Of a DNA stretch of 64,000 bases, positions 11,130 through 49,004 are shown in pieces; within the stretch, counting starts at the first letter, position 1; each line of letters starts with the position of its first letter. The notes beneath the pieces were generated by a model. The model saw only the letters and a list, made by a program, of their open reading frames with translations, had not been told where the DNA came from and did not search any database. The DNA lies in assembly GCF_010550695.1 (NCBI RefSeq), contig NZ_JAAGOB010000004.1, positions 248,001-312,000 on the forward strand, read 5' to 3'. Both the position numbers and the translations under genes were made by a program. Source of the DNA: Phytoactinopolyspora alkaliphila. Lineage in GTDB: Bacteria > Actinomycetota > Actinomycetes > Jiangellales > Jiangellaceae.

Positions 11130-12252
11130 GGCAGGCAGATAGGACGCTGAGGAACGATGCCAACGTGGATCGGTCGCGCAGCGCGATCCGGAACCAGTCC
11201 TGGCCGAGGCCCGGGAACGTGTCGCCACGCCGCACAGCCCAGCCGGCGTCCCGCAACCGATGCCGCAGACCGTCGTCGTCGGGGAACCTGACCAGGACGA
11301 ACGGCGCCCGCGGAGCCGACACCACCTCGCCCCCGAACTGCCGGAGTTCGGCAGCGAGCCACGCCCTCACCGGCTCGTCCGCGCGGGCCGTCCGCTCGGC
11401 CTCGGCGAGTGCCGAGGGCTCCAGGCATGCTTGGATCGCCTCCACCGCCAGGCTCGACACCGACCACGGTGGCTGAACGTCCCGGAACCTCTCGATGGCG
11501 TCAGCCGGCCCCAGTATGTAACCCGCGCGAATCCCGGCGAGGCCCCACGTCTTGGTCAGGCTGCGCAGCACGACGAGCCCTGGCAGGTCGCGCCGGTCCG
11601 CCACGGACTCGGCCTCCCCGGGCACAGCGTCCATGAAAGCCTCATCGACCACGACGATCCGGCCCGGGCGGGTCAGGCGCTCGATGGATCGTGCCGGGTG
11701 TAGTACAGATGTCGGATTGGTGGGGTTACCGACGACGACCAGGTCCGCGTCGCCTGGGACGATGCTGGGGTCCAGCACGAAGCCGTCAGCCGCCGATAGG
11801 ACCACGCGTTCGACGGTGTGCCGCGCTGTTGTGAGCGCCACCTCAGGTTCGGTGAACTGCGGATGTACGACGACGGCCCGCTGGACATCGGCGCCCGGGC
11901 GGAAGGCGCGGGCGATCAGGGTGAACGCCTCGGCCCCGCCGGCCGCCGGCAGTACCTCGTCGGCTGGACGGCCGTGCCGTACCGCGATCGCCTCGGCGGC
12001 GGGCTTCGCGTCGGGATATGCCGCGACGTCGTCGACCGTGGCGCGCAGGCGGTCGCGCAGCCACGGCGGTGGCATGCCGGCGCGGACGTTGACCGCGAGG
12101 TCGATCAGGCCGGCGGCCGCGTCCCGGTCCCCATGGTGCCGCAGGTCCGGCCCCGGCGCCGCCCTCGTTGTGTCCTGCGAACTGTGGCTCATGGCGCTCG
12201 GGTCGCAGGACACAACGGTGCGTACAGCCGGCGTGTCACCACTCGATGCCAC
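11086..12252 (-). CDS. cobC: CobC-type aminotransferase / threonine-phosphate decarboxylase
   Basis: A PLP enzyme of the class I/II aminotransferase fold that in cobalamin synthesis makes (R)-1-amino-2-propanol phosphate or its equivalent for the nucleotide loop. The lysine motif is SLTKTWGLAGIRAGY; other fold motifs are GNPTNPTSVL and VVDEAFMD. The family start region LRHHGD lies about 37 residues in. GTG at 12252 overlaps the cobO stop by 17 bases and has AGAAGG 6 bases upstream, so coupling is likely; ATG at 12192 is the alternative and lies inside a palindromic element at 12166-12217. It is the last gene of the btuFCD-cbiX-chlID-cobO operon. Confidence 0.85.
   Translation of the reverse strand: MASSGDTPAVRTVVSCDPSAMSHSSQDTTRAAPGPDLRHHGDRDAAAGLIDLAVNVRAGMPPPWLRDRLRATVDDVAAYPDAKPAAEAIAVRHGRPADEVLPAAGGAEAFTLIARAFRPGADVQRAVVVHPQFTEPEVALTTARHTVERVVLSAADGFVLDPSIVPGDADLVVVGNPTNPTSVLHPARSIERLTRPGRIVVVDEAFMDAVPGEAESVADRRDLPGLVVLRSLTKTWGLAGIRAGYILGPADAIERFRDVQPPWSVSSLAVEAIQACLEPSALAEAERTARADEPVRAWLAAELRQFGGEVVSAPRAPFVLVRFPDDDGLRHRLRDAGWAVRRGDTFPGLGQDWFRIALRDRSTLASFLSVLSACLTSGGGPAGEAPAS
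12166..12217. repeat. Palindromic element copy at the 5' end of cobC
   Basis: A perfect 15-bp inverted repeat (CGTTGTGTCCTGCGA, arms 12166-12180 and 12203-12217) with a GCGCTCGG core. It is a diverged member of the GCGTCCTGCA/TGCAGGACGC family. It is read in cobC as VVSCDPSAMSHSSQDTT, a frame different from the one used in cobN and cobQ, and it contains the candidate ATG at 12192. Confidence 0.7.
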
Positions 12253-15045: not shown

Positions 15046-16100
15046 ATGTCCTCCGGGGTCGTGTAAGAGATGGCAGGCGACGGGTCCAGGGCGCCCGACG
15101 ACGTGGTACCGCGGGTCGTCCGCAGCTCGCGGACGACGACGCCACGGTGCAGATGTTCGTCGACGATTCGGTCCACTCCGCCGGAATCCACCGACGTGTA
15201 CCAGACGTCGTCGGGCTGCACCACGACGATCGGGCCGAGATTGCACGGAACCAGGCAGCCCGTGTTGGTGACCAGCACCTCCTCGTAGCTCACCGGACCG
15301 GCCTGCAGCTTCGCTGCCAGCGCCTGGGCGACGAGCGCGCTGCCGTGCGCCGAACACCTCGGACCCCGGCAGATCAGCACATGATGGCGGTGCCCGCCGA
15401 TGGTCGACCAGTTCGGGCTCCGGAAGGAGGCCGGTGAATCGGTGACCGGTTGGCTAGGCGTCGTCATGGCGGCGACCAGCGCGTCAAGCATCGGCTCGGT
15501 CTCGCTCACCCCGACGCCGATACGCACCTCCGGCAGGAAGGACACGCATCGCCGCTCAGGTCTGTTGGTCGCGCTCGGTTTCTCGCTTGCTTCGCGGGCG
15601 ATGCTCGTTCCTCGCGTCGACCGCTGCGCTCGCTCGTCGCCTCGCCGCTGAGGTCTGTTGGTCGCGCTCGGTTTCTCGCTTGCTTCGCGGGCGATGCTCG
15701 TTCCTCGCGTCGACCGCTGCGCTCGCTCGTCGCCTCGCCGCTCAGGTCTGTTGGTCGCGCTCGGCTTCTCGCTTGCTTCGCGGGCGATGCTCGTTCCTCG
15801 CGTCGACCGCTGCGCTCGCTCGTCGCCTCGCCGCTCAGTCCAATGCGCGGCCGCTTTGCCGACCCACGTCTCCAAGTAGCGGTCGCGAGGTACCTGAACG
15901 GGCAGGACGAGAACCTCGGTGGCGCCGTCGGCGTGGCACTCGTCCAGCGCGTCGTGCAAGGATTCCTCGCCGTGGTCGAGCAGCGCGGACCGCACGATGT
16001 CGCCGGTGCGCTCGCGCAGCCGCACCGCCAGCCGGCTCAGCGCACGTTCCGCGGCCGGAGCGCCAAGGGCTCGACCCACCAGCACGATCTGTCTCGTCAT
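15042..16100 (-). CDS. CbiX-like / 2Fe-2S ferredoxin fusion with a tripled 31-residue insert
   Basis: A 352-residue three-part protein. Residues 1-88 and about 185-215 resemble a CbiX-type chelatase fold (MTRQIVLVGRALGAP; VLVLPVQVPRDRYLETW). The usual catalytic His motifs (HGS near the N-terminus and a His in the second strand) are not evident, so chelatase activity is doubtful. Residues 89-181 are three copies of a 31-residue unit rich in Arg, Ser, Glu and Thr. The C-terminal part (about 230-330) is a thioredoxin-like 2Fe-2S ferredoxin with cysteines in ICRGPRCSAHG and NTGCLVPCNLGP. It sits between btuD and chlID with ATGA overlaps on both sides. Electron donation to cobalt before adenosylation is my inference. 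Confidence 0.75.
   Translation of the reverse strand: MTRQIVLVGRALGAPAAERALSRLAVRLRERTGDIVRSALLDHGEESLHDALDECHADGATEVLVLPVQVPRDRYLETWVGKAAAHWTERRGDERAQRSTRGTSIAREASEKPSATNRPERRGDERAQRSTRGTSIAREASEKPSATNRPQRRGDERAQRSTRGTSIAREASEKPSATNRPERRCVSFLPEVRIGVGVSETEPMLDALVAAMTTPSQPVTDSPASFRSPNWSTIGGHRHHVLICRGPRCSAHGSALVAQALAAKLQAGPVSYEEVLVTNTGCLVPCNLGPIVVVQPDDVWYTSVDSGGVDRIVDEHLHRGVVVRELRTTRGTTSSGALDPSPAISYTTPEDI
15551..15838. repeat. 93-bp tandem repeat, three copies, in frame
   Basis: Units begin at 15551, 15644 and 15737 with GCCGCTsAGG, an exact 93-bp (31-codon) period, plus a 9-base partial copy at 15830. Units are nearly identical. On the minus strand each encodes a peptide starting (E/Q)RRGDERAQRS and ending SEKPSATNRP. 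The unit is rich in GCTCG/CGAGC words. No copy is seen elsewhere in the window. Confidence 0.95.
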
Positions 16101-19169: not shown

Positions 19170-19394
19170 ACCGCCTTCCATCACCTCGTGGAATCGGGCT
19201 ATCTCGTGCCGTGGCCGGTCTCCTGGCTGACGGGGTGACGTCGTCCGGCCTGCCTTCCCAGGCAGCGTGTGCTGCCCAGTGGCTTCCCTTCCAGTGGAAG
19301 GGGGACGGCCGGGGACTACCCGATCACAGTGGCGAGGGCCGCTCCGGTACTACACCGGATTCCCGAACACCACGGCAGCCAACACTGTACCGGG
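19170..19394 (-). promoter_or_regulatory. Cobalamin riboswitch upstream of btuFCD
   Basis: Read on the minus strand it has the ordered conserved blocks of the AdoCbl riboswitch: GGTG..CGGGAATCCGGTG, GCCACTGTGA, the core GCCACTGGGCAGC, GGGAAGGC, and the B12 box AGCCAGGAGACCGGCC. It ends at GGAAGG just before the btuF start, so translation control is likely. Every base of 19170-19394 is identical to 29928-30152. It fills most of the gap between cobB and btuF. Confidence 0.93.
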
Positions 19395-19413
19395 TGCGGT
19401 CGGGCGCCTCCGC

Positions 19414-19463
19414 GTTGCGTCCTGCAAGGCGAGCATTCTGAGCCTCAGAATGCAGGACGTTGC
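19414..19463. repeat. Palindromic element copy at the 3' end of cobB
   Basis: Arms GTTGCGTCCTGCA (19414-19426) and TGCAGGACGTTGC (19451-19463). An inner hairpin GCATTCTGA/TCAGAATGC replaces the usual core. The cobB reading frame runs into it: CAA CGT CCT GCA TTC TGA, so the element supplies the last codons and the stop. Confidence 0.8.
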
Positions 19464-29927: not shown

Positions 29928-30152
29928 ACCGCCTTCCATCACCTCGTGGAATCGGGCTATCTCGTGCCGTGGCCGGTCTCCTGGCTGACGGGGTGACGTC
30001 GTCCGGCCTGCCTTCCCAGGCAGCGTGTGCTGCCCAGTGGCTTCCCTTCCAGTGGAAGGGGGACGGCCGGGGACTACCCGATCACAGTGGCGAGGGCCGC
30101 TCCGGTACTACACCGGATTCCCGAACACCACGGCAGCCAACACTGTACCGGG
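29928..30152 (-). promoter_or_regulatory. Cobalamin riboswitch upstream of cobGHIJ
   Basis: Identical at all 225 positions to the btuF riboswitch at 19170-19394, with the same conserved core and B12 box. It ends four bases before the cobG ATG, with GGAAGG as the controllable ribosome site. The 387-base gene-free stretch 29924-30310 holds this riboswitch, a palindromic element and the start region of the divergent lipoprotein gene. Confidence 0.93.
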
Positions 30153-30160
30153 CGCGGCTG

Positions 30161-30208
30161 TTGCGTCCTGCAGGGTGTGCGCTCGGGGCCACGATCCGCA
30201 GGACGCTG
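30161..30208. repeat. Palindromic element copy, intergenic
   Basis: Left arm TTGCGTCCTGCA (30161-30172), core with GCGCTCGG, right arm CGCAGGACGC (30197-30206). It begins 8 bases from the end of the riboswitch copy; the element at 19414 lies at the same side of the other copy, 19 bases away. Confidence 0.75.
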
Positions 30209-30310: not shown

Positions 30311-30970
30311 ATGAATCGCCGAAACCGAGTGCTCGCCGCCTTGGCCGGAACACTCGCCGTGGGTGTCTTCACCGCATGCGGGTCCGACGACGACGCCGCC
30401 ACGACCGGCGGCGATACCGACACCACGATCAACGGTGAGACCGAGGACACCGACGCGGGCACCGACGACACCGAGACGGACGAGGACAACGACGCGGGCA
30501 CCGACGACACCGAGACGGACGAGGACAACGACGCGGGCACCGACGACACCGAGACGGACGAGGACAACGACGAGGACGAGGACGACGACGCGGGCGGCGA
30601 CGGAAACCGGGTGGAGCTGGCCGACACGGACCTCGGTGAGATCCTGGTAGACGGCGAAGGACGCACCCTGTATCTGTTCACGGTCGACGAGCCCGGTCAG
30701 AGCAACTGCGAAGACGATTGCCTCGACGCATGGCCCCCACTGGAAGGTGAGGCCACGGCAGGCGAGGGCGTGAACGCGGACCTGCTCGGCACCGTCGAGC
30801 GCAGCGACGGCAGCACTCAGGCGAGCTATGCCGACTGGCCGCTCTACTACTTCGCTGCTGACGAGACCCCCGGAGATCTGAACGGCCAGGGCGTCAACGA
30901 CGTCTGGTACGTGATCGACGCCGAAGGCAATGCCATCGAGGACCTGCCCGAAGAGGACTCAGGCTACTGA
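30311..30970 (+). CDS. Lipoprotein with acidic repeat and COG4315-type domain
   Basis: A 219-residue exported lipoprotein. AGGAGG lies 6 bases before the ATG. The lipobox is FTACG (Cys at about residue 25). Residues 26-100 are extremely acidic, including three perfect 13-residue repeats (DAGTDDTETDEDN). The C-terminal domain has paired 'secreted repeat' motifs GRTLYLFTVDEPGQSNCEDDC and WPLYYFAADETPGDLNGQG (shown in parts), as in predicted lipoproteins with the Yx(F/W)xxD motif. The two cysteines in SNCEDDC probably form a disulphide. Function unknown; the acidic stalk may carry the domain through the wall. Confidence 0.8.
   Translation: MNRRNRVLAALAGTLAVGVFTACGSDDDAATTGGDTDTTINGETEDTDAGTDDTETDEDNDAGTDDTETDEDNDAGTDDTETDEDNDEDEDDDAGGDGNRVELADTDLGEILVDGEGRTLYLFTVDEPGQSNCEDDCLDAWPPLEGEATAGEGVNADLLGTVERSDGSTQASYADWPLYYFAADETPGDLNGQGVNDVWYVIDAEGNAIEDLPEEDSGY
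30452..30568 (+). repeat. 39-bp tandem repeat, three copies, coding
   Basis: Units start at 30452, 30491 and 30530 and encode DAGTDDTETDEDN. Copies are identical by eye, so expansion or contraction by slippage is likely recent. Confidence 0.9.
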
Positions 30971-31983: not shown

Positions 31984-32033
31984 CTTGCGTCCTGCAAGCC
32001 GAGGCCTCCGGCACTCGCCTTGCAGGACGCAAG
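31984..32033. repeat. Palindromic element copy between convergent genes
   Basis: A perfect 15-bp inverted repeat (CTTGCGTCCTGCAAG 31984-31998 / 32019-32033) with core GCACTCGC, in the 69-base gap between the dehydratase gene and cobN. It could serve as a bidirectional terminator. Confidence 0.85.
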
Positions 32034-32043
32034 ATCGGGGCAG

Positions 32044-35000
32044 CTAGTCCTCGAGGTCACCTTCCGTTTCGAGCACGGCCTGCTGGAGCGCTTCCAGTGC
32101 CTCCGCCGACGGCTCGGCCCACAAGCCGCGCTGCGCGGCCTCGAGCAGCCGCTCGGCCATGCCTTTGCGCGCCCAGGGGTTGGACCGCCGGAAGAACTCG
32201 GCCACCTCGGGGTCGTTGACGTATTCGCGGGTCAGCGTCTCGTACATCCAGTCCTCGACCACTCCGGCGGTGGCGTCGTAGCCGAACAGGTAGTCGACGG
32301 TGGCCGCCATCTCGAAGGCGCCCTTGTAGCCATGCCGCTGCATCGCGGCGATCCATTTCGGGTTCACCACCCGGGCCCGGAAGACGCGCGCGGTCTCCTC
32401 GGACAGGGAACGGGTCCGGACGTGCTCGGTCACGGCGGAGTCGCCCACGTAGGCGGCCGGCGACTCCCCGGTCAGGTGCCGGACCATCGCCACCATGCCG
32501 CCGTGGTACTGGAAGTAGTCGTCGGAGTCGACGATGTCGTGCTCGCGCGTGTCCTGGTTCTTTACCGCCACCTGAATCCGGGAGTAGGCCTTCTCCATGT
32601 CGCCCCGCGCCTCGACGCCGTCCAGCCCGCGGCCGTAGGCGTAACCGCCCCATACCGCGTAGACCTCGGCGAGGTCGGCGTCGGTGCGCCAGTTCCGGGC
32701 GTCGACCAGCGGTAGGAGCCCGGCTCCGTAGGCACCGGGCTTGGAGCCGAAGATCCGCGCCGTTGCCCGCCGGGGGTCGGCGCCGTCGGCGAGATCCTCG
32801 CTCACGTGGGCACGCAGGTGGTTGACGGAGATGTCCTCGTCGAGTTCCGCGACGGTCCGGACGGCGTCATCGATGAGCCCGACGACGTGCGGGAACGCGT
32901 CGCGGAAGAACCCAGAGATGCGCACGGTGACGTCCACCCGGGGCCGCGGCTCGCCGTCCAGCAGCAGCTCCCCGGCAGGAACCACCTCGAAGCCGGTGAC
33001 CCGCCGCGACGCCTCGTCCCAGACCGGCCGAACGCCCAGCAGCCAGAGCACCTCGGCGATGTCGTCGCCCTGGGTGCGCATCGCCGCGGTTCCCCAGACG
33101 GTGAGTCCCACCGATGTGGGCACCGCGCCGGTGTCCGCCTTGTGGCGCCGGAGCAACGAGTCGCCCAGTGCGACGCCGACGTCCCAGGCGTTGCGCGAGG
33201 GAATCGCCTTGGGGTCGACCGAGTACATGTTCCGGCCGGTGGGCAGGACGTTGACCAGGCCTCGGGTAGGCGAGCCGGACGGGCCGGGAGCCACGTAGCG
33301 GCCGTCGAGCGCGTGGACGGAATTGGCGAGCTCGTCTGTGGTGCGGGCCAATCTCGGTACCAGCTGTTCCGCACCGAAGCGCAAGACGTCAGCGACCTCG
33401 TCCACATCGGAGCCCAGCACGTCCACGACGACGCTCTTCGCCTCGTCCGGGCGCCATTCCCGGTCGGCGAGCTCCTCGACCAGCCGGCGGGCCACGTCCT
33501 CGAGGAGGTCGACGAGGTCGGACCCGGTGCGGGCGGCGACCTCCGGCGCGGCCGAGCTCGTGTCGCTGCGTCCTGCAGACTGAGGGTCAGGGCGCTCGCC
33601 CTGCAGGACGCTAGCGATGTCGAGCAGCCTTCGCACGCCGGACGTCTGCGCCACCGCGGCCCCCGGCTCGGCAAGCAAGGCCTGCTCGTCCAGGCCGGCC
33701 CACTCCGCGACCGCGCCGCGTAATCCCCGGTGCGATGTCTCACCGCCAAACACCTGCCGCGCTCGCAGCACGGCCAGCACGTCGTTGACCAGCTCGTCGC
33801 CCTCCGGTGCACGGCCCAGGATGTGCAGGCCGTCACGGATCTGTACGTCCTTGATTTCGCACAGGTAGCCATCGATGTGCAGGACGAAATCGTCGAAGTC
33901 CTCGTCGCCAGGCATTTGCTCGGTATGCAAGTCACGGTGCAGCTCGGCCTGGGTGACCAGCTCCCAGATCTGGGATCGGACGGTGGGCGCCTTGGCCGGG
34001 TCCAGTTCGGCGACGGTGGCGTACTCGTCCAGCAGCTGCTCCAGTTTGGCCAGGTCACCATAGGTGTCGGCGCGCGCCATGGGCGGAATCATGTGGTCGA
34101 TCAGGACCGCGTGGGCGCGGCGTTTGGCCTGCGTACCTTCACCGGGGTCGTTGACGATGAACGGGTAGATCAGCGGCAGGTCGCCGAGGACGGCGTCCGG
34201 CGCCGAATCGTTCGACAGGCCCAGTCCCTTCCCGGGCAGCCACTCCAGGGTGCCGTGTTTGCCGAGGTGGACTACGGCGTCGGCGCCGAACCCCCCGGCG
34301 GAAGCCGGCTCCTGGAGCCAGCGATAGGCGGCCACGTAGTGGTGCGACGGCGCGAGGTTCGGGTCGTGGTAGATCGCCACCGGGTTCTCCCCGAACCCGC
34401 GCGGCGGCTGGATCATCAGGACTACGTTGCCGAACACCAGCCCAGCGATGGCGATCGCGGGTTCCGCGCCCGTCATGTCGACGTAGAGCTCGCCGGGCGG
34501 TTCACCCCAGGCGCCGACGACGCTCTCCCGCAGCGCCGCAGGTAGCGTGCGGAACCACTGGGCGTAGGTGGAGGCCGGAATGCTCGCTGCGGCGCCGGCG
34601 AGCTGCTCCTCGGTGAGCCATTCGACGTCGTGCCCGCCAGCGGCGATCAGGCGGTGCACTAGCGCGTCGCCAGGCGGCTGGCCCGAGCCGTCCTCGCCGG
34701 TACCGCGGCCGAGCGCGTCCAGCTCGAGATCCCCGATGTGATAGCCGGCGTCCCGGAGCCTGCGCAGCAGTTCGACGGCGCTGGCGGGGGTGTCCAGGCC
34801 GACGGCGTTGCCGACCCGGGCGTGCTTGGTGGGGTAACTGGACAGGACCAATGCGATCCGCTTCTCGGCGTTCGGCGTGCGGCCCAGCCGGGCGGTGCGC
34901 ACCGCGATACCGGCCAGGCGCCGAGCACGCTCGGGATCGGCGACGTACTGAGGAACGCCCTCCGCACCGACCTCCTTGAACGAGAACGGCACGCCGATGA

Positions 35001-35913
35001 TCCGGCCGTCGAACTCGGGAAGCGCCACCTGGGTGGCGGCGTCCATCGGGTTCATCGCGCCGTCACTCTCGGCCCAGGCAGCGCGGGTGCTGGTCAGCGT
35101 CAGGCCCTGCACCACGGTGACCCCGAGGTCGGCGAAGAGCGCCGTGCTCCACGCGTCGTCGTCCTCACCGGCGGTGGCCTTTCCGGCCACCAATCCGCCG
35201 CTGGCGAGCACCGTGGTGATCAGCACGTCGGCCCGGCTGAGGAGCTCTCGCAGCTCGGCGTACTCGTCGCGGTCGGTGCCGCGCAGCGAGTCGGTGAAGA
35301 TCGGCAGCGGGATGCCGCCAGCAGCGTCGATCTGCTCGCAGAGGACGTCGATGAAAGCGGTGTTGCCGGAGAGCTCATGCGATCGGTAGAAGATGATCCC
35401 AACAACGGGCCCGGCCGCGAGTGCCCGGCCGTCGTCGCTGGCACCCTCCATGCGCTGCCCAGCCATGGTGTGGCGCGGAACCTCATGCACGCCGAAGCGA
35501 GGCTGCTCCGCCGGGGGTTCGAAGCCCTCGCCGGTCAGGAGGATCGTGTCGGAGAGGAACGCCGCCAGCTGGGCGAGATTGACCGGTCCACCCGCCACCA
35601 GGTACCGCTGCGTCTCGGTAGCCACGCCGCTGGGAACCGTGGAGAGTGCGTGCAGTTGCGCGTCCGGGCTGGCCTCGCCGCTGACGACCACCGTGGGCAC
35701 TCCTGATGCGCGTACCGCTGCCAGCCCGTCGGGCCAGGCTTCCCGGCCACCGAGAAGCCGGACTACTGCGACGTCGACGTTCTCGAGAAGTGCTGGGACG
35801 TGCTCAGCCGAGGTGCGCGATGGATTCGCGACGGCCCACCGGTCATCGGCGCGGATCGCGGTCAGCAGGTCGGTGTCGGCGGTGGACAGGAGAAGCAGGC
35901 GTGGCACGGCCAT
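32044..35913 (-). CDS. cobN: Cobaltochelatase large subunit CobN
   Basis: A 1289-residue CobN that inserts Co(II) into hydrogenobyrinic acid a,c-diamide with the ATPase subunit encoded by the fused chlID gene. Motifs along the chain: GIIFYRSHELSGNTAFIDVL, DAVVHLGKHGTLEWLPGKGL, TRGLVNVLPTGRNMYSVDPK and YQYHGGMVAMVRHL-like FQYHGGMVAMVRHLTG. The start ATG at 35913 has GAGAGGACACC upstream. A palindromic element at 33567-33612 is read in frame near residue 775, adding VLQGERPDPQSAGR. The 48-codon upstream extension lies in the riboswitch and is rejected. Confidence 0.95.
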   Translation of the reverse strand: MAVPRLLLLSTADTDLLTAIRADDRWAVANPSRTSAEHVPALLENVDVAVVRLLGGREAWPDGLAAVRASGVPTVVVSGEASPDAQLHALSTVPSGVATETQRYLVAGGPVNLAQLAAFLSDTILLTGEGFEPPAEQPRFGVHEVPRHTMAGQRMEGASDDGRALAAGPVVGIIFYRSHELSGNTAFIDVLCEQIDAAGGIPLPIFTDSLRGTDRDEYAELRELLSRADVLITTVLASGGLVAGKATAGEDDDAWSTALFADLGVTVVQGLTLTSTRAAWAESDGAMNPMDAATQVALPEFDGRIIGVPFSFKEVGAEGVPQYVADPERARRLAGIAVRTARLGRTPNAEKRIALVLSSYPTKHARVGNAVGLDTPASAVELLRRLRDAGYHIGDLELDALGRGTGEDGSGQPPGDALVHRLIAAGGHDVEWLTEEQLAGAAASIPASTYAQWFRTLPAALRESVVGAWGEPPGELYVDMTGAEPAIAIAGLVFGNVVLMIQPPRGFGENPVAIYHDPNLAPSHHYVAAYRWLQEPASAGGFGADAVVHLGKHGTLEWLPGKGLGLSNDSAPDAVLGDLPLIYPFIVNDPGEGTQAKRRAHAVLIDHMIPPMARADTYGDLAKLEQLLDEYATVAELDPAKAPTVRSQIWELVTQAELHRDLHTEQMPGDEDFDDFVLHIDGYLCEIKDVQIRDGLHILGRAPEGDELVNDVLAVLRARQVFGGETSHRGLRGAVAEWAGLDEQALLAEPGAAVAQTSGVRRLLDIASVLQGERPDPQSAGRSDTSSAAPEVAARTGSDLVDLLEDVARRLVEELADREWRPDEAKSVVVDVLGSDVDEVADVLRFGAEQLVPRLARTTDELANSVHALDGRYVAPGPSGSPTRGLVNVLPTGRNMYSVDPKAIPSRNAWDVGVALGDSLLRRHKADTGAVPTSVGLTVWGTAAMRTQGDDIAEVLWLLGVRPVWDEASRRVTGFEVVPAGELLLDGEPRPRVDVTVRISGFFRDAFPHVVGLIDDAVRTVAELDEDISVNHLRAHVSEDLADGADPRRATARIFGSKPGAYGAGLLPLVDARNWRTDADLAEVYAVWGGYAYGRGLDGVEARGDMEKAYSRIQVAVKNQDTREHDIVDSDDYFQYHGGMVAMVRHLTGESPAAYVGDSAVTEHVRTRSLSEETARVFRARVVNPKWIAAMQRHGYKGAFEMAATVDYLFGYDATAGVVEDWMYETLTREYVNDPEVAEFFRRSNPWARKGMAERLLEAAQRGLWAEPSAEALEALQQAVLETEGDLED
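33567..33612. repeat. Palindromic element copy inside cobN, read in frame
   Basis: Arms TGCGTCCTGCAG (33567-33578) and CTGCAGGACGCT (33601-33612) with core GCGCTCG. The minus-strand cobN frame reads it as SVLQGERPDPQSAGRSD. The phase matches the two copies in cobQ. Confidence 0.88.
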
Positions 35914-35954: not shown

Positions 35955-36115
35955 CGACGCCTGGCAGTGTCCTGGCTCCCGGATCGACGCTGGTCCTCAG
36001 CCTTCCCAGGCGTGCTGCCCAGTGGCCTTGTTCGAGGACCGGCTCCCCGGTCACAGTCGCGGGACGGCCCCGGGTTCGGGCGCTGATGCGCTCTCACCGG
36101 TGTTCCTGCCATGAC
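35955..36115 (-). promoter_or_regulatory. Cobalamin riboswitch upstream of cobN
   Basis: On the minus strand: GGCAGGAACACCGGTGAGAG, GGGGCCGTCCCGCGACTGTGA, the core GGCCACTGGGCAGC, CTGGGAAGGC and a B12-box variant GAGCCAGGACACTGCC. It is clearly diverged from the identical pair at 19170 and 29928. The 359-base gene-free stretch 35914-36272 holds this riboswitch, a palindromic element and the promoter region of the next gene. Confidence 0.88.
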
Positions 36116-36154
36116 GTCGGAAGGTCGTTGCCGATCCTATCTGCAGGACCTTCC

Positions 36155-36204
36155 CCTGCGTCCGGCAAGGTGTGGCCCGGAGCGCTCGGGCTGCAGGACG
36201 TTGC
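36155..36204. repeat. Palindromic element copy, intergenic, decayed left arm
   Basis: Left arm CCTGCGTCCGGCA (one change from CCTGCA), core GCGCTCGG, right arm TGCAGGACGTTGC. A lone half arm CTGCAGGAC lies just upstream at 36141. Confidence 0.7.
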
Positions 36205-36272: not shown

Positions 36273-37181
36273 GTGCGCTACCCAGACGTCGAAAGGCTCG
36301 CCGCCGATCAGCATGGTGTGATCTCACGGCGTCAGCTCTATGCGCTCGGTCTGACCAGATGGCAGGTCAAGGCGCAGCTTCTGGCCAGGCGGTGGCGGAA
36401 ACACGGGCGACAGAGCATCGCCACTCACACCGGGGATCTGAGCCCGCCCGCCCTGTGGTGGCGTGCCGTGTGGGAGGTGGGCGGGGATGCTGCACTCGAC
36501 GGGGTCACTGCATTGCAGTCGGCGGGCCTAGAAGGATTCAACTCTCCGGCCATCCAGGTGTCCGTCTCCCGCGGTGCCAGATATCACAAGGTTCCAGGTG
36601 TGCGCGTCTATGAGACGCGACGCCGCAGGCCGGGCGATGTAGTCGGGAGCGGACTACCGCGGGTGCGGCCCGAGGTGGCGGCGGTGCGCGGTGCGCTGTG
36701 GGCAGTGTCGAACCGGCAAGCCGCCCTAGTCTGGTTGATGGCGATTCAGCAGCGGCTCGTAACGGGCGTAGCGCTGGCCGATGCCTTCGGCACCGTGAAA
36801 CGTCACCGGCGGCGGCGGTTCTTGCGGACGGTCCTGGCCGATGTCATTGACGGTGTGCAGTCGATGGGCGAGCTGGACTTCGCTGGCATGTGTCGCGCCC
36901 GCGGGCTGCCGGAGCCGACCCGCCAGGTGGTGCGTCGCGGCCCACGTGGGCGGGTATATCTGGACGTTTACTGGGACCAGTGGGGCGTCGTCGTCGAGAT
37001 TGAAGGGGCGCAGCATCTCGATCCCGCAACGTCCATCAATGATGCGCTGCGGCAGAACGAGCTGTTCATCCATGGCGACGGTGTGCTTCGGTTACCGGTC
37101 ATAGGTCTCAGGCTTGAACCCGATGCGTTCATGAATCAGGTGGCGAACATGATTGCTCGCAGCCGGCGTCGCGCCGCGTAA
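36273..37181 (+). CDS. AbiEi-like winged-helix plus DUF559/Vsr-like nuclease domain protein
   Basis: A 302-residue protein. N-terminal part (DQHGVISRRQLYALGLTRWQ) resembles the winged-helix domain of type IV AbiEi antitoxins; C-terminal part (RVYLDVYWDQWGVVVEIEG, LRQNELFIHGDGVLRLP) resembles DUF559, a Vsr-type endonuclease fold with Asp and Glu where the active site would be. Such solitary two-domain proteins are common in actinobacteria and have no settled role. GTG at 36273 starts it; no matching AbiEii toxin lies nearby. Palindromic elements flank it on both sides. Confidence 0.7.
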   Translation: MRYPDVERLAADQHGVISRRQLYALGLTRWQVKAQLLARRWRKHGRQSIATHTGDLSPPALWWRAVWEVGGDAALDGVTALQSAGLEGFNSPAIQVSVSRGARYHKVPGVRVYETRRRRPGDVVGSGLPRVRPEVAAVRGALWAVSNRQAALVWLMAIQQRLVTGVALADAFGTVKRHRRRRFLRTVLADVIDGVQSMGELDFAGMCRARGLPEPTRQVVRRGPRGRVYLDVYWDQWGVVVEIEGAQHLDPATSINDALRQNELFIHGDGVLRLPVIGLRLEPDAFMNQVANMIARSRRRAA

Positions 37182-37250
37182 CGTCCTGCAGGCCGCCCCC
37201 GTTGCGTCCTGCACGGTGTGGCCCCGAGCGCTCGGGATGCAGGACGCAAC
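37181..37250. repeat. Palindromic element: half arm plus full copy
   Basis: A solitary ACGTCCTGCA (37181-37190) touches the stop codon of the preceding gene. A full copy follows: GTTGCGTCCTGCA (37201-37213), core GCGCTCGG, TGCAGGACGCAAC (37238-37250), a perfect 13-bp inverted repeat. Confidence 0.85.
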
Positions 37251-37274: not shown

Positions 37275-38342
37275 TCAGGCAGCTGGGCGACGGCCGTACG
37301 TCACCGCGTGGACCGGCGTCAGTTCCAGGTGGCCGATCTCGGTGAAGTCGTGCCGGGTAAGCAGGTCGTCGTAGGCGGACCGGGGCAGGAGCTGGTCGTC
37401 GATCTGGGCTTCGAAGAACTGGATGCCCTGCAGGATCCGGCCGGGCGCGGTGCGCAAGGCGTCGTCGTTCTCCGGGAAGGGAAAGTCGGAAATGCAGAAC
37501 CACCCGCCGGGCTCCAGGGACTGCCAGACGCGCTGTGTGACGGTGTCGATGTCGCGGCACTCGTGCATGGTCAGGTTGGTGACGACGACGCCGAACTCTC
37601 CGGGCGAGTCGAGGTCCTCCAGCGGTGTGTGCAAGAAGTCCACGCGATCCGCGACGCCAGCTTGGTTGACGCGGTTTTTGGCCAGCTCGATCGACACGTG
37701 GTCGCCGTCGATGCCGACGACGTGACACTGAGGGTAGTGCTGGGCGAGCCGCACCAGCCCGAGCCCGAGACCGGAGCCGAGATCGGCGACGGTGGTCCCG
37801 GCGGCCAGACTCTGCGCAGCACCTGGAATCCGATCGAGTGCCCCGGGGACGAGCCGCGTGTAGAACGGCATGGCCGTCCTGGACACCGCGGTGATCCAAT
37901 CGCTGCTGCACTCGTCCCACCAGAGCCGCTCGCCGGAGCTGAGTACGCGCTCGAAGCGGTCGAACGCCTCGCGCTGGGAGAATATCTCGAACAGCGCCCC
38001 CGCGTAGGCGGGAGAGCTCTCGTCGAGCAGAAGGGTGCTCATCTCCGGCGCCAGGGCGAACCGGTCGCCGGCAGCGCGGACCCCGATGCCGTACGCGATC
38101 GCTCCGCGGCACCACACCGCGACGTAGAAAGGATCCAGGCCGAGACGCTTCGCCAGCTCGTCGGCCGTGGCTGGTCCCTCGGCCAGCGTTGCGACCAGGC
38201 CGCTCCGCAGGCCGAGGGCGATGGCACGGTATCCGGCGTATCCGGCCACGTGAGAGAGGAGCACCCCCGCCTGCTGCTTGATCGGTGGTGCACCCAGAGC
38301 GTTGGGTTCGGGAACGGATGGTGCCGGGTGGGCGACGGTCAT
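37275..38342 (-). CDS. Class I SAM-dependent methyltransferase with helical N-terminal domain
   Basis: A 355-residue protein. Residues 25-110 form a winged-helix-like region (YRAIALGLRSGLVATLAEGPATADELAKRLGL), as in small-molecule O-methyltransferase relatives. The SAM motif is TTVADLGSGLGLGLVRLA, followed by VVGIDGDHVSIELAKN. The substrate is unknown. It is divergent from an HxlR-type regulator, with paired direct repeats between them, so expression is probably controlled by that regulator. Confidence 0.8.
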   Translation of the reverse strand: MTVAHPAPSVPEPNALGAPPIKQQAGVLLSHVAGYAGYRAIALGLRSGLVATLAEGPATADELAKRLGLDPFYVAVWCRGAIAYGIGVRAAGDRFALAPEMSTLLLDESSPAYAGALFEIFSQREAFDRFERVLSSGERLWWDECSSDWITAVSRTAMPFYTRLVPGALDRIPGAAQSLAAGTTVADLGSGLGLGLVRLAQHYPQCHVVGIDGDHVSIELAKNRVNQAGVADRVDFLHTPLEDLDSPGEFGVVVTNLTMHECRDIDTVTQRVWQSLEPGGWFCISDFPFPENDDALRTAPGRILQGIQFFEAQIDDQLLPRSAYDDLLTRHDFTEIGHLELTPVHAVTYGRRPAA

Positions 38343-47417: not shown

Positions 47418-49004
47418 TCACCGGGGCGTGGATAGGACAGGGAGGCCGCCAGGAGGGCCGTGCTCGATGAGGCGTAGCAGCGCCGTTGTGTCGAGGTGGG
47501 TTTCCACCGCGTCGGCCAGCCGATTCAGCATCGTCTCCCGCTGCTCGGTGAAACCGGGTGCCGCGGCCGGACGCCAGCTGTGCCCGATCGTCTCGGCGAT
47601 CTCGACCAGCCAGGCGCGGCGGAAGTCGTCGTTCTCGAACGCGCCGTGCCAAGTGGTGCCCCACACGCTTCCGGCCCGCCAGCCGTCCAGGAACCGCTCG
47701 TAGCGTCCTGCAGAGCGTGCGTCCCGGCGCTCAGTGTGCAGGACGTCGGCGGGCGGAGCGTCGTCGTTGCGGGTGGCGACGCCGTGGTGGATCTCGTAGG
47801 CGGCGACGTCGTGCCCCCGCCACGACCCCGTCGGCCGGTCCAGCTTCTTGTCCGTGCCGAACGTCACCTCCGTCGGCAGCAGCCCCAGGCCGGGCACGGT
47901 GCGTCCGGATTCGACGGGATCGACGATCCGCTCGGCCAGCATCTGGTAGCCGCCGCAGATACCCAGCACCGGGAGACCGGCGCGGGCACGGGCGACGACG
48001 GCCGTGTCCAGGCCGCGTCCTCGCATCCAGGTCAGGTCGGAGACGGTGGCCCGGCTGCCGGGCAGGACGACGAGGTCGGCGGCGCTCACCACACCCGGAT
48101 CGGCGGTGAGCGTCACGGTGACGCCCGGTTCGCACGCCAGCGCGTCCACGTCGGTGGCGTTCGATACACGGGGAAAGCGCACGACGGCGACGGTCAACGG
48201 CCGGCTGCCACCACTGCGTCCTGCAGACCGTGCGTCGGGACACTCACTTTGCAGGACGCTGCTCTCGGTCCAGCCACCGATGGCCAAGGCATCTTCGGAG
48301 TCGATCCACACCCCGTCGAGCCAGGGTAGGACGCCGTAGACCGGCCGGCCGGTGAGTTCGGTGATGCGGTCCAGGCCGGGGCGGAGGACGTCGACGTCAC
48401 CGCGGAACTTGTTGATCACGAAACCGGTGAGGTGCCGCTGGTCAGCGGGGTCGAGCAAGGCGAGCGTCCCGTACATGGCGGCCAGCGACCCGCCGCGGTC
48501 CACATCCGCGACGACCACCACGGGCAGGTCGGCGTGTCTGGCCAGGCCCATGTTGACGTAGTCACCGGTGCGCAGGTTGATCTCCGCCGGGCTGCCCGCG
48601 CCTTCGCAGACGACGGCGTCGAACCTGGCCCGCAGCTCCGCCAGCGCGTCGAACGCGGTCTCGGCCAGTGCCTTCCGGCCGGTGGCGTACTCACCCGCTC
48701 GCAGCACGCCGTGCGGCTTGCCGAGGAGCACCACGTGGGAGGTGCGGTCGCTGCCCGGTTTGAGCAGCACCGGGTTCATCGCCGCTTCCGGCTCCACTCG
48801 GGCGGCCATCGCCTGCACCCATTGAGCGCGGCCGATCTCGGAACCGTCGGTGCAGACCATGGAGTTGTTCGACATGTTCTGCGCCTTGAACGGGGCCACC
48901 CGGATGCCCTGGCGGGTCAGCCAGCGGCAGATGCCGACTGTCACCAGGCTCTTGCCGGCGTCCGACGTCGTACCGGCCACCAGCAGACCACCACCGCGCG
49001 TCAC
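47418..49004 (-). CDS. cobQ: Cobyric acid synthase, with two palindromic-element insertions
   Basis: A 528-residue CobQ/CbiP that amidates four side chains of adenosylcobyrinic acid diamide. ATPase part: LVAGTTSDAGKSLVTVGIC, PFKAQNMSNNS, VCEGAGSPAEINL. Glutamine amidotransferase part: VLPGSRATVSDL, nucleophile Cys in VLGICGGYQMLAE, His in GTTWHGAFEND. Two palindromic elements are read in frame: VLQSECPDARSAGR in the inter-domain linker (about residue 250) and VLHTERRDARSAGR before the WHG motif (about residue 420). All catalytic motifs remain. Start GTG at 49004 overlaps the cobD stop (GTGA). Confidence 0.95.
   Translation of the reverse strand: MTRGGGLLVAGTTSDAGKSLVTVGICRWLTRQGIRVAPFKAQNMSNNSMVCTDGSEIGRAQWVQAMAARVEPEAAMNPVLLKPGSDRTSHVVLLGKPHGVLRAGEYATGRKALAETAFDALAELRARFDAVVCEGAGSPAEINLRTGDYVNMGLARHADLPVVVVADVDRGGSLAAMYGTLALLDPADQRHLTGFVINKFRGDVDVLRPGLDRITELTGRPVYGVLPWLDGVWIDSEDALAIGGWTESSVLQSECPDARSAGRSGGSRPLTVAVVRFPRVSNATDVDALACEPGVTVTLTADPGVVSAADLVVLPGSRATVSDLTWMRGRGLDTAVVARARAGLPVLGICGGYQMLAERIVDPVESGRTVPGLGLLPTEVTFGTDKKLDRPTGSWRGHDVAAYEIHHGVATRNDDAPPADVLHTERRDARSAGRYERFLDGWRAGSVWGTTWHGAFENDDFRRAWLVEIAETIGHSWRPAAAPGFTEQRETMLNRLADAVETHLDTTALLRLIEHGPPGGLPVLSTPR
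47702..47746. repeat. Palindromic element copy inside cobQ (distal)
   Basis: Arms GCGTCCTGCA (47703-47712) and TGCAGGACGT (47737-47746), core GCGCTCAG. Read by cobQ as DVLHTERRDARSAGRYE. Confidence 0.88.
48215..48261. repeat. Palindromic element copy inside cobQ (linker)
   Basis: Arms TGCGTCCTGCA (48215-48225) and TGCAGGACGC (48250-48259), core GACACTCA. Read by cobQ as SVLQSECPDARSAGRSG, in the same codon phase as the other coding copies. Confidence 0.88.

Follow-up and report, generated by a model that had tools for sequence, protein, structure and literature searches.

The window analysed here, a 64-kb stretch of the Phytoactinopolyspora alkaliphila genome (G000), carries on its minus strand the gene cobQ (47418..49004), whose 528-aa product scores 579 bits against the NCBIfam model NF001989, with a cut-off of 273 for assignment as cobyric acid synthase. 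The gene hosts two copies of a palindromic element, as the first-pass annotation had proposed: copy 1 lies in the interdomain linker (insertion site 1; 48216..48259, minus strand) and encodes VLQSECPDARSAGR, and copy 2 precedes the WHG motif (insertion site 2; 47703..47746, minus strand) and encodes VLHTERRDARSAGR. Both copies match GCGTCCTGCA-N24-TGCAGGACGC and are in frame, and the minus-strand translations confirmed that they are read in the identical codon phase. The motifs and domains of CobQ are intact despite both segments, in agreement with the earlier claim that the catalytic motifs remain. A search for a solved-structure homologue usable for mapping the inserts returned matches to HisH only.

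Copies of the element in the cobalamin region

Nine of the 44 copies in the genome fall within the window, where ~0.5 would be expected, although the window had been chosen for its repeats, which bears on this comparison. All nine are located in or beside cobalamin genes, and the cobalamin regions of P. endophytica (G003), P. limicola (G004) and a further congener (G001) also contain several copies each. Besides those in cobQ, one copy (33568..33611, minus strand) resides inside cobN (32044..35913, minus strand), the gene for a cobaltochelatase subunit, where it encodes VLQGERPDPQSAGR and occupies the same place in all four species. The other six copies, listed without a strand, are associated with gene ends, spacers and riboswitches. 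One, between cobC and cobO (12170..12213), contains a called cobC start and is found at the same position in G001 and P. endophytica; another (19417..19460) overlaps the cobB 3′ end and is situated 28 nt upstream of a cobalamin riboswitch (19196-19389, minus strand). A third (30163..30206) lies 16 nt upstream of a second such riboswitch (29954-30147, minus strand), and a fourth (36158..36201) ~50 nt upstream of the cobN riboswitch. The last two are a copy between a threonine dehydratase-like gene and the convergent 3′ end of cobN (31987..32030) and an intergenic one (37204..37247) between the genes at 36663-37181 and 37275-38264.

Thus, all three window riboswitches have an element 16-50 nt upstream, and for the cobN riboswitch a spacing of 49-50 nt is conserved in three species (window 35965-36201; G001 C11:73949-74199; G004 C1:400095-400346). 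A general link between the element and cobalamin riboswitches was nevertheless rejected: elsewhere in the genus a comparably close element could be placed only at the cobN riboswitch of G001 and P. limicola, and a further riboswitch of the window's own genome, at contig C10, has no listed copy. Within the window, only the cobalamin riboswitches reach the Rfam gathering score, so that the element corresponds to no known RNA family. Two 230-bp riboswitch regions located 10.8 kb apart (19170-19399 and 29928-30157), each with an element just upstream, are 100% identical, which points to recent duplication or conversion. Tandem repeats of 93 nt (97% alike) adjoin the chelatase genes, and a lipoprotein-like gene contains an acidic, Asp/Thr/Glu-rich repeat of 39 nt (15545-15838 and 30403-30615). 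At several loci the element provides its neighbours with stop or start codons, namely, at the end of a pyrD-like gene (L067), at the end of cobB (19445-19460) and at the start of cobC (12170-12192); repetitive extragenic palindromes (REPs) have likewise been reported to supply start and stop codons to adjoining genes.

Structure and distribution of the repeat

The repeat is a 44-bp dyad, GCGTCCTGCR-N24-YGCAGGACGC, or ~50 bp with its TT/AA flanks. Its consensus is GCGTCCTGCRNNNYGWGSSYYNNRRSSCWCRNNNYGCAGGACGC (164 rows representing 163 distinct copies), and the flanks favour CGTT and AACG. With up to two mismatches allowed over the 20 arm positions, the 5.5-Mb genome contains 44 exact-length copies, compared to 0 for the reversed-pattern control, and the copies are therefore not chance occurrences. 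The half-sites are found almost only within the 44-bp dyad; a search of the same genome for a parental inverted-repeat pair recovered one solo half-site outside the dyads and no such pair. No base-pair covariation was detected: pairing between variable partners does not exceed the level predicted by independence, and anti-pairing is seen at positions 17/26 and 18/25, which shows that the dyad is built from two types of half-site and is not a covarying hairpin. Among the 163 copies, the two types, GWGCG and GWGGC, tend to be combined in opposition (positions 17-18 and 25-26). The CG-type half is more often 3′ on the sense strand, in genes (13 versus 2) and, weakly, in tandem spacers (30 versus 16, P = 0.05).

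The same pattern was matched 68, 37, 32 and 11 times in G001, P. endophytica, P. limicola and P. halotolerans (G002), respectively, but only once in the sister genus (G005) and 0-4 times in other Jiangellaceae, a background level, where the listed matches mostly have no core. When 84,980 species were scanned for the exact pattern, P. endophytica, P. limicola and P. halotolerans were retrieved along with three single records. Hence, the element is a dispersed repeat of the genus Phytoactinopolyspora (Jiangellaceae). In a phylum-wide sample of 396 genomes, the strict dyad was present solely in the window's genome and in two of family f41, the Nitriliruptoraceae. Metagenome-assembled genomes from that family carry true copies (L061:210-253; G448, contigs C391 and C510; G396 and G422), with the same arms, a core reading CGAGGC and inner palindromes that are almost perfect. 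The repeat family thus extends to another class of Actinobacteria, perhaps via horizontal transfer.

Copies outside genes occupy mostly tandem or convergent spacers, at a median distance of 20 nt from gene 3′ ends. Some occur in pairs, with start-to-start distances of ~55, 65 or 74 bp (G003:C18:15692/15747; G004:C2:91678/91743; G004:C20:6687/6752; further pairs near cobN on G001:C11 and G004:C1), resembling the REP dimers known as BIMEs. A second dense region surrounds the arginine biosynthesis genes argJ-argB (G001:C2:785000-828000; G000:C15:7178-27317).

Target-site duplication, RAYT mobilisation and phage carriage were considered and rejected. The flanks of 141 copies show no direct-repeat excess, the RAYT transposase (Y1_Tnp, PF01797) is encoded in 0 of 5 congeneric genomes, with the control positive in 5 of 14, and the strict dyad has no exact match in IMG/VR viral contigs. 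No binding protein or transposase for the element was found.

Shared insertions, one reading phase and conserved synonymous codons

CobQ was aligned with 18 other CobQs, 13 of them outgroups. Both segments are insertions relative to 13/13 outgroups, in line with the prediction that they would appear as lineage-specific in-frame additions. Recognisable element DNA is present at site 1 in P. alkaliphila, G001, P. endophytica and P. limicola, and at site 2 in the same species except G001, whose CobQ is missing this site (18 codons). The first-pass annotation would have been contradicted by conservation of the segments in genomes without the repeat; P. halotolerans and the sister genus have CobQ linkers of similar length in which the element DNA is decayed or unrecognisable, and the proposal stands. 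The FastTree phylogeny of CobQ, which has modest support, branches in the order ((G000,(G002,G003)),(G001,G004)), and the sister genus falls outside this group. The absence of site 2 from G001 and the decay in P. halotolerans are therefore most simply secondary. Both insertions would thus predate the species split, with G001 later losing site 2 apparently without an end to CobQ function. The insertion in beta-galactosidase is present in P. alkaliphila and G001, degraded in P. halotolerans and P. endophytica, and absent from other genera (G009/G011), whose site is cleanly empty. Beyond the initial account of cobQ, then, the insertions are old and common to several species, and cobN, beta-galactosidase and other genes carry the element too.

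The shared phase extends well beyond cobQ. Phase 1 is used by 20 of the 23 copies that lie wholly within called ORFs, and the other three are located in C-terminal tails; interior copies are always in this one phase, encoding VL[QH]xExxDAxxAGR. Counted as independent loci, ~10 of 13 are in phase 1 (P = 0.002; 0.006 after weighting for stops): cobQ twice, cobN, and the genes for beta-galactosidase, an ADP-ribosylglycohydrolase, a Rieske protein, an amino-acid kinase (ArgB-like), a phosphoribosyl-AMP cyclohydrolase (HisI-like), an isocitrate/isopropylmalate dehydrogenase-type protein and a 2-hydroxyacid dehydrogenase. Genes were called by a home-made codon-score caller, which may favour one phase at protein ends; only four loci, the two in cobQ and those in cobN and beta-galactosidase, are truly interior, and on those alone the uniform phase has P ~0.04. 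It had been suggested that a TGA in another frame of the linker copy may account for the shared phase. The TGA is indeed there, and in both cobQ copies (CGT CCT GCA AAG TGA and CGT CCT GCA CAC TGA), but their third phase is open, and stops were rejected as the cause: in non-genic copies, the proportion of open reads is 97%, 99% and 60% for phases 0, 1 and 2, so that only phase 2 is depleted. Stops therefore exclude at most one of the two other phases and explain only part of the uniformity. The alternative phases would encode ASC...QDA or RPA...CRT peptides, against which we infer selection.

Conservation of the element reaches positions at which the protein is indifferent. Four-fold site identity between species in cobQ and cobN is 0.47-0.66. 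GCA/GGA codons of P. alkaliphila are nonetheless kept at the same place in G001, P. endophytica and P. limicola in 15 of 16 cases inside the elements (both cobQ sites and cobN), compared to 7 of 64 outside the elements in the same genes (nominal P ~5e-14, species and sites not being independent; P. halotolerans and the sister genus, in which the family has decayed, were left out). For most of the copies compared, the search pattern itself accounts for part of the arm conservation, whereas this codon-retention test is free of that effect. Similarly, across 15 intergenic ortholog pairs the four core positions, in most cases not imposed by the search, are 100% identical, whereas the eight freest positions are 34% identical, the level of random copies. 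With synonymous codons kept despite ~50% four-fold identity and free positions randomised, it is the nucleic-acid sequence rather than the peptide that is maintained in these insertions. Accordingly, the original view that the insertions are tolerated captures one part of the picture, in that the CobQ segments seem dispensable, given that G001 does without site 2, but the reading of inert, tolerated insertions is incomplete, as the element DNA is conserved at synonymous sites. Mean arm mismatch is 0.00-0.11 in P. alkaliphila, G001 and P. limicola and 0.35 in P. endophytica, and few copies are left in P. halotolerans, suggesting that a putative maintaining factor may have been weakened or lost in the clade of the latter two species.

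Proposed explanations and relation to known palindromes

The explanation we favour, with a probability of roughly 60%, is that a dispersed repeat of the genus inserted in frame and that its sequence was then held by a putative sequence-specific partner. The element would insert mainly between genes, in the manner of the Rickettsia palindromic elements (RPEs); insertions into genes would have survived only if in frame and in the phase of the hydrophilic peptide VL[QH]xExxDAxxAGR, and would occupy loops, linkers or tails. The partner, probably a dimeric DNA-binding protein such as a mobilising recombinase or transposase or a host chromosome-binding protein, would read the half-sites GTCCTGC and GWG and so hold the nucleic acid constant. 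Where it is lost or weak, as may be the case in P. halotolerans, the sister genus and, in part, P. endophytica, copies would decay, even inside genes.

Such a DNA-binding partner is the most likely agent, the main rival being concerted re-copying, in which an active mobile or converting repeat overwrites or re-enters occupied sites and no selection on sequence is needed. This process predicts the same pattern of constant arms and random free positions, and clustering of the copies, near-identical local pairs in P. limicola and two identical copies in P. alkaliphila are compatible with it; constraint and repeated re-copying at sites already occupied are not fully distinguishable. However, orthologs are more alike in the orthologous than in the flipped orientation (0.546 versus 0.424, P = 0.003), a result that speaks for vertical descent rather than fresh re-insertion. 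It would also be unusual for coding DNA to undergo conversion between tracts of 44 bp, and no enzyme was found, so that we regard re-copying as rather unlikely. A transcribed hairpin acting as an mRNA stabiliser or processing site, a role proposed for many REPs, would fit the position of the copies shortly behind gene 3′ ends, the better folding of single copies compared to shuffles (z from −2.2 to −9) and the 3′ bias of the CG-type half. Yet the variable paired positions lack a Watson-Crick excess, two core positions anti-pair, and the sense strand shows no preference for G-U over A-C (103 versus 139); a hairpin held by compensatory change is thereby rejected, and an RNA element in general appears unlikely. 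The view implicit in the first-pass annotation, that of a dead selfish family of MITE or RPE type decaying neutrally in CobQ, is consistent with the poorly conserved linkers occupied by the insertions, the loss of site 2 in G001 and the decayed segments in P. halotolerans and the sister genus, but is strongly disfavoured by the retention of rare codons inside the elements under saturated synonymous divergence and is improbable. That the segments were selected because they improve their host proteins, as the single phase and recurring peptide consensus might suggest, is highly improbable, because that consensus follows from the DNA consensus, conservation reaches synonymous sites, the host proteins are unrelated, and CobQ has lost the segment in G001 and has only a degraded form of it in P. 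halotolerans.

A bolder form of the partner reading is tentative. The element may be a spreading chromosomal recognition site lodged in essential metabolic genes, such that cobQ, cobN and others would double as putative protein-binding sites, with synonymous codons fixed genus-wide and joint decay following loss of the partner.

Palindromes that encode protein have been described chiefly in Rickettsia, Wolbachia and certain REP-rich genomes, and no report of actinobacterial ones was found in the literature searched. RPEs and the Wolbachia palindromic elements are dispersed, intergenic as well as inserted inside unrelated housekeeping genes with the frame kept, and in RPEs the insertion locus is shared among orthologs (PMC3767692, PMC10969869). 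The Phytoactinopolyspora palindromes are likewise dispersed between genes and in frame inside ORFs, with insertion loci shared by orthologs. Compared by description, however, RPEs are 100-150 bp long and belong to Rickettsiales, whereas the present element is a fixed 44-bp dyad of GC-rich, free-living actinobacteria and, unlike RPEs, is read in one phase and conserved at synonymous sites. CGTC- and GTAG-tagged REPs are short palindromes typically located <20 bp behind stop codons, some of them inside ORFs and encoding 20-30 aa; CGTC REPs, which have no known transposase, have a stem of 8-9 bp that starts with AT, a loop of 4-5 nt, a CCA tail and, at one end only, a CGTC tag that is left unpaired, and Actinobacteria are not named among the hosts of either type (Di Nocera et al. 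2013, PMC3733652). The Phytoactinopolyspora element also starts with GCGTC, lies close behind stop codons and is in some cases intragenic, but has CGTC at both ends, paired with GACG, in a 44-bp dyad, and differs from GTAG-REPs and REPtrons in that the congeneric genomes encode no RAYT. MITEs such as Correia, RUP and ERIC are small dispersed inverted-repeat elements, some of them intragenic (PMC10969869); the element described here has no target-site duplication, and its half-sites are almost confined to the dyad. Departing from CGTC-REPs in structure, from GTAG-REPs in the transposase and from RPEs in length and host, the element appears to work like RPEs and intragenic REPs but is filed as a member of none of these families.

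The novelty lies in the lineage, in a dyad of fixed 44-bp length, in the one phase shared by interior copies and in conservation at synonymous sites. With several species, shared sites, intact (P. alkaliphila, G001, P. limicola) and decayed (P. halotolerans, sister genus) states, and rare synonymous codons as a clock, this family allows the question of whether coding palindromes are merely tolerated or maintained to be put in numbers, and the rare-codon clock indicates that the nucleic acid is maintained.
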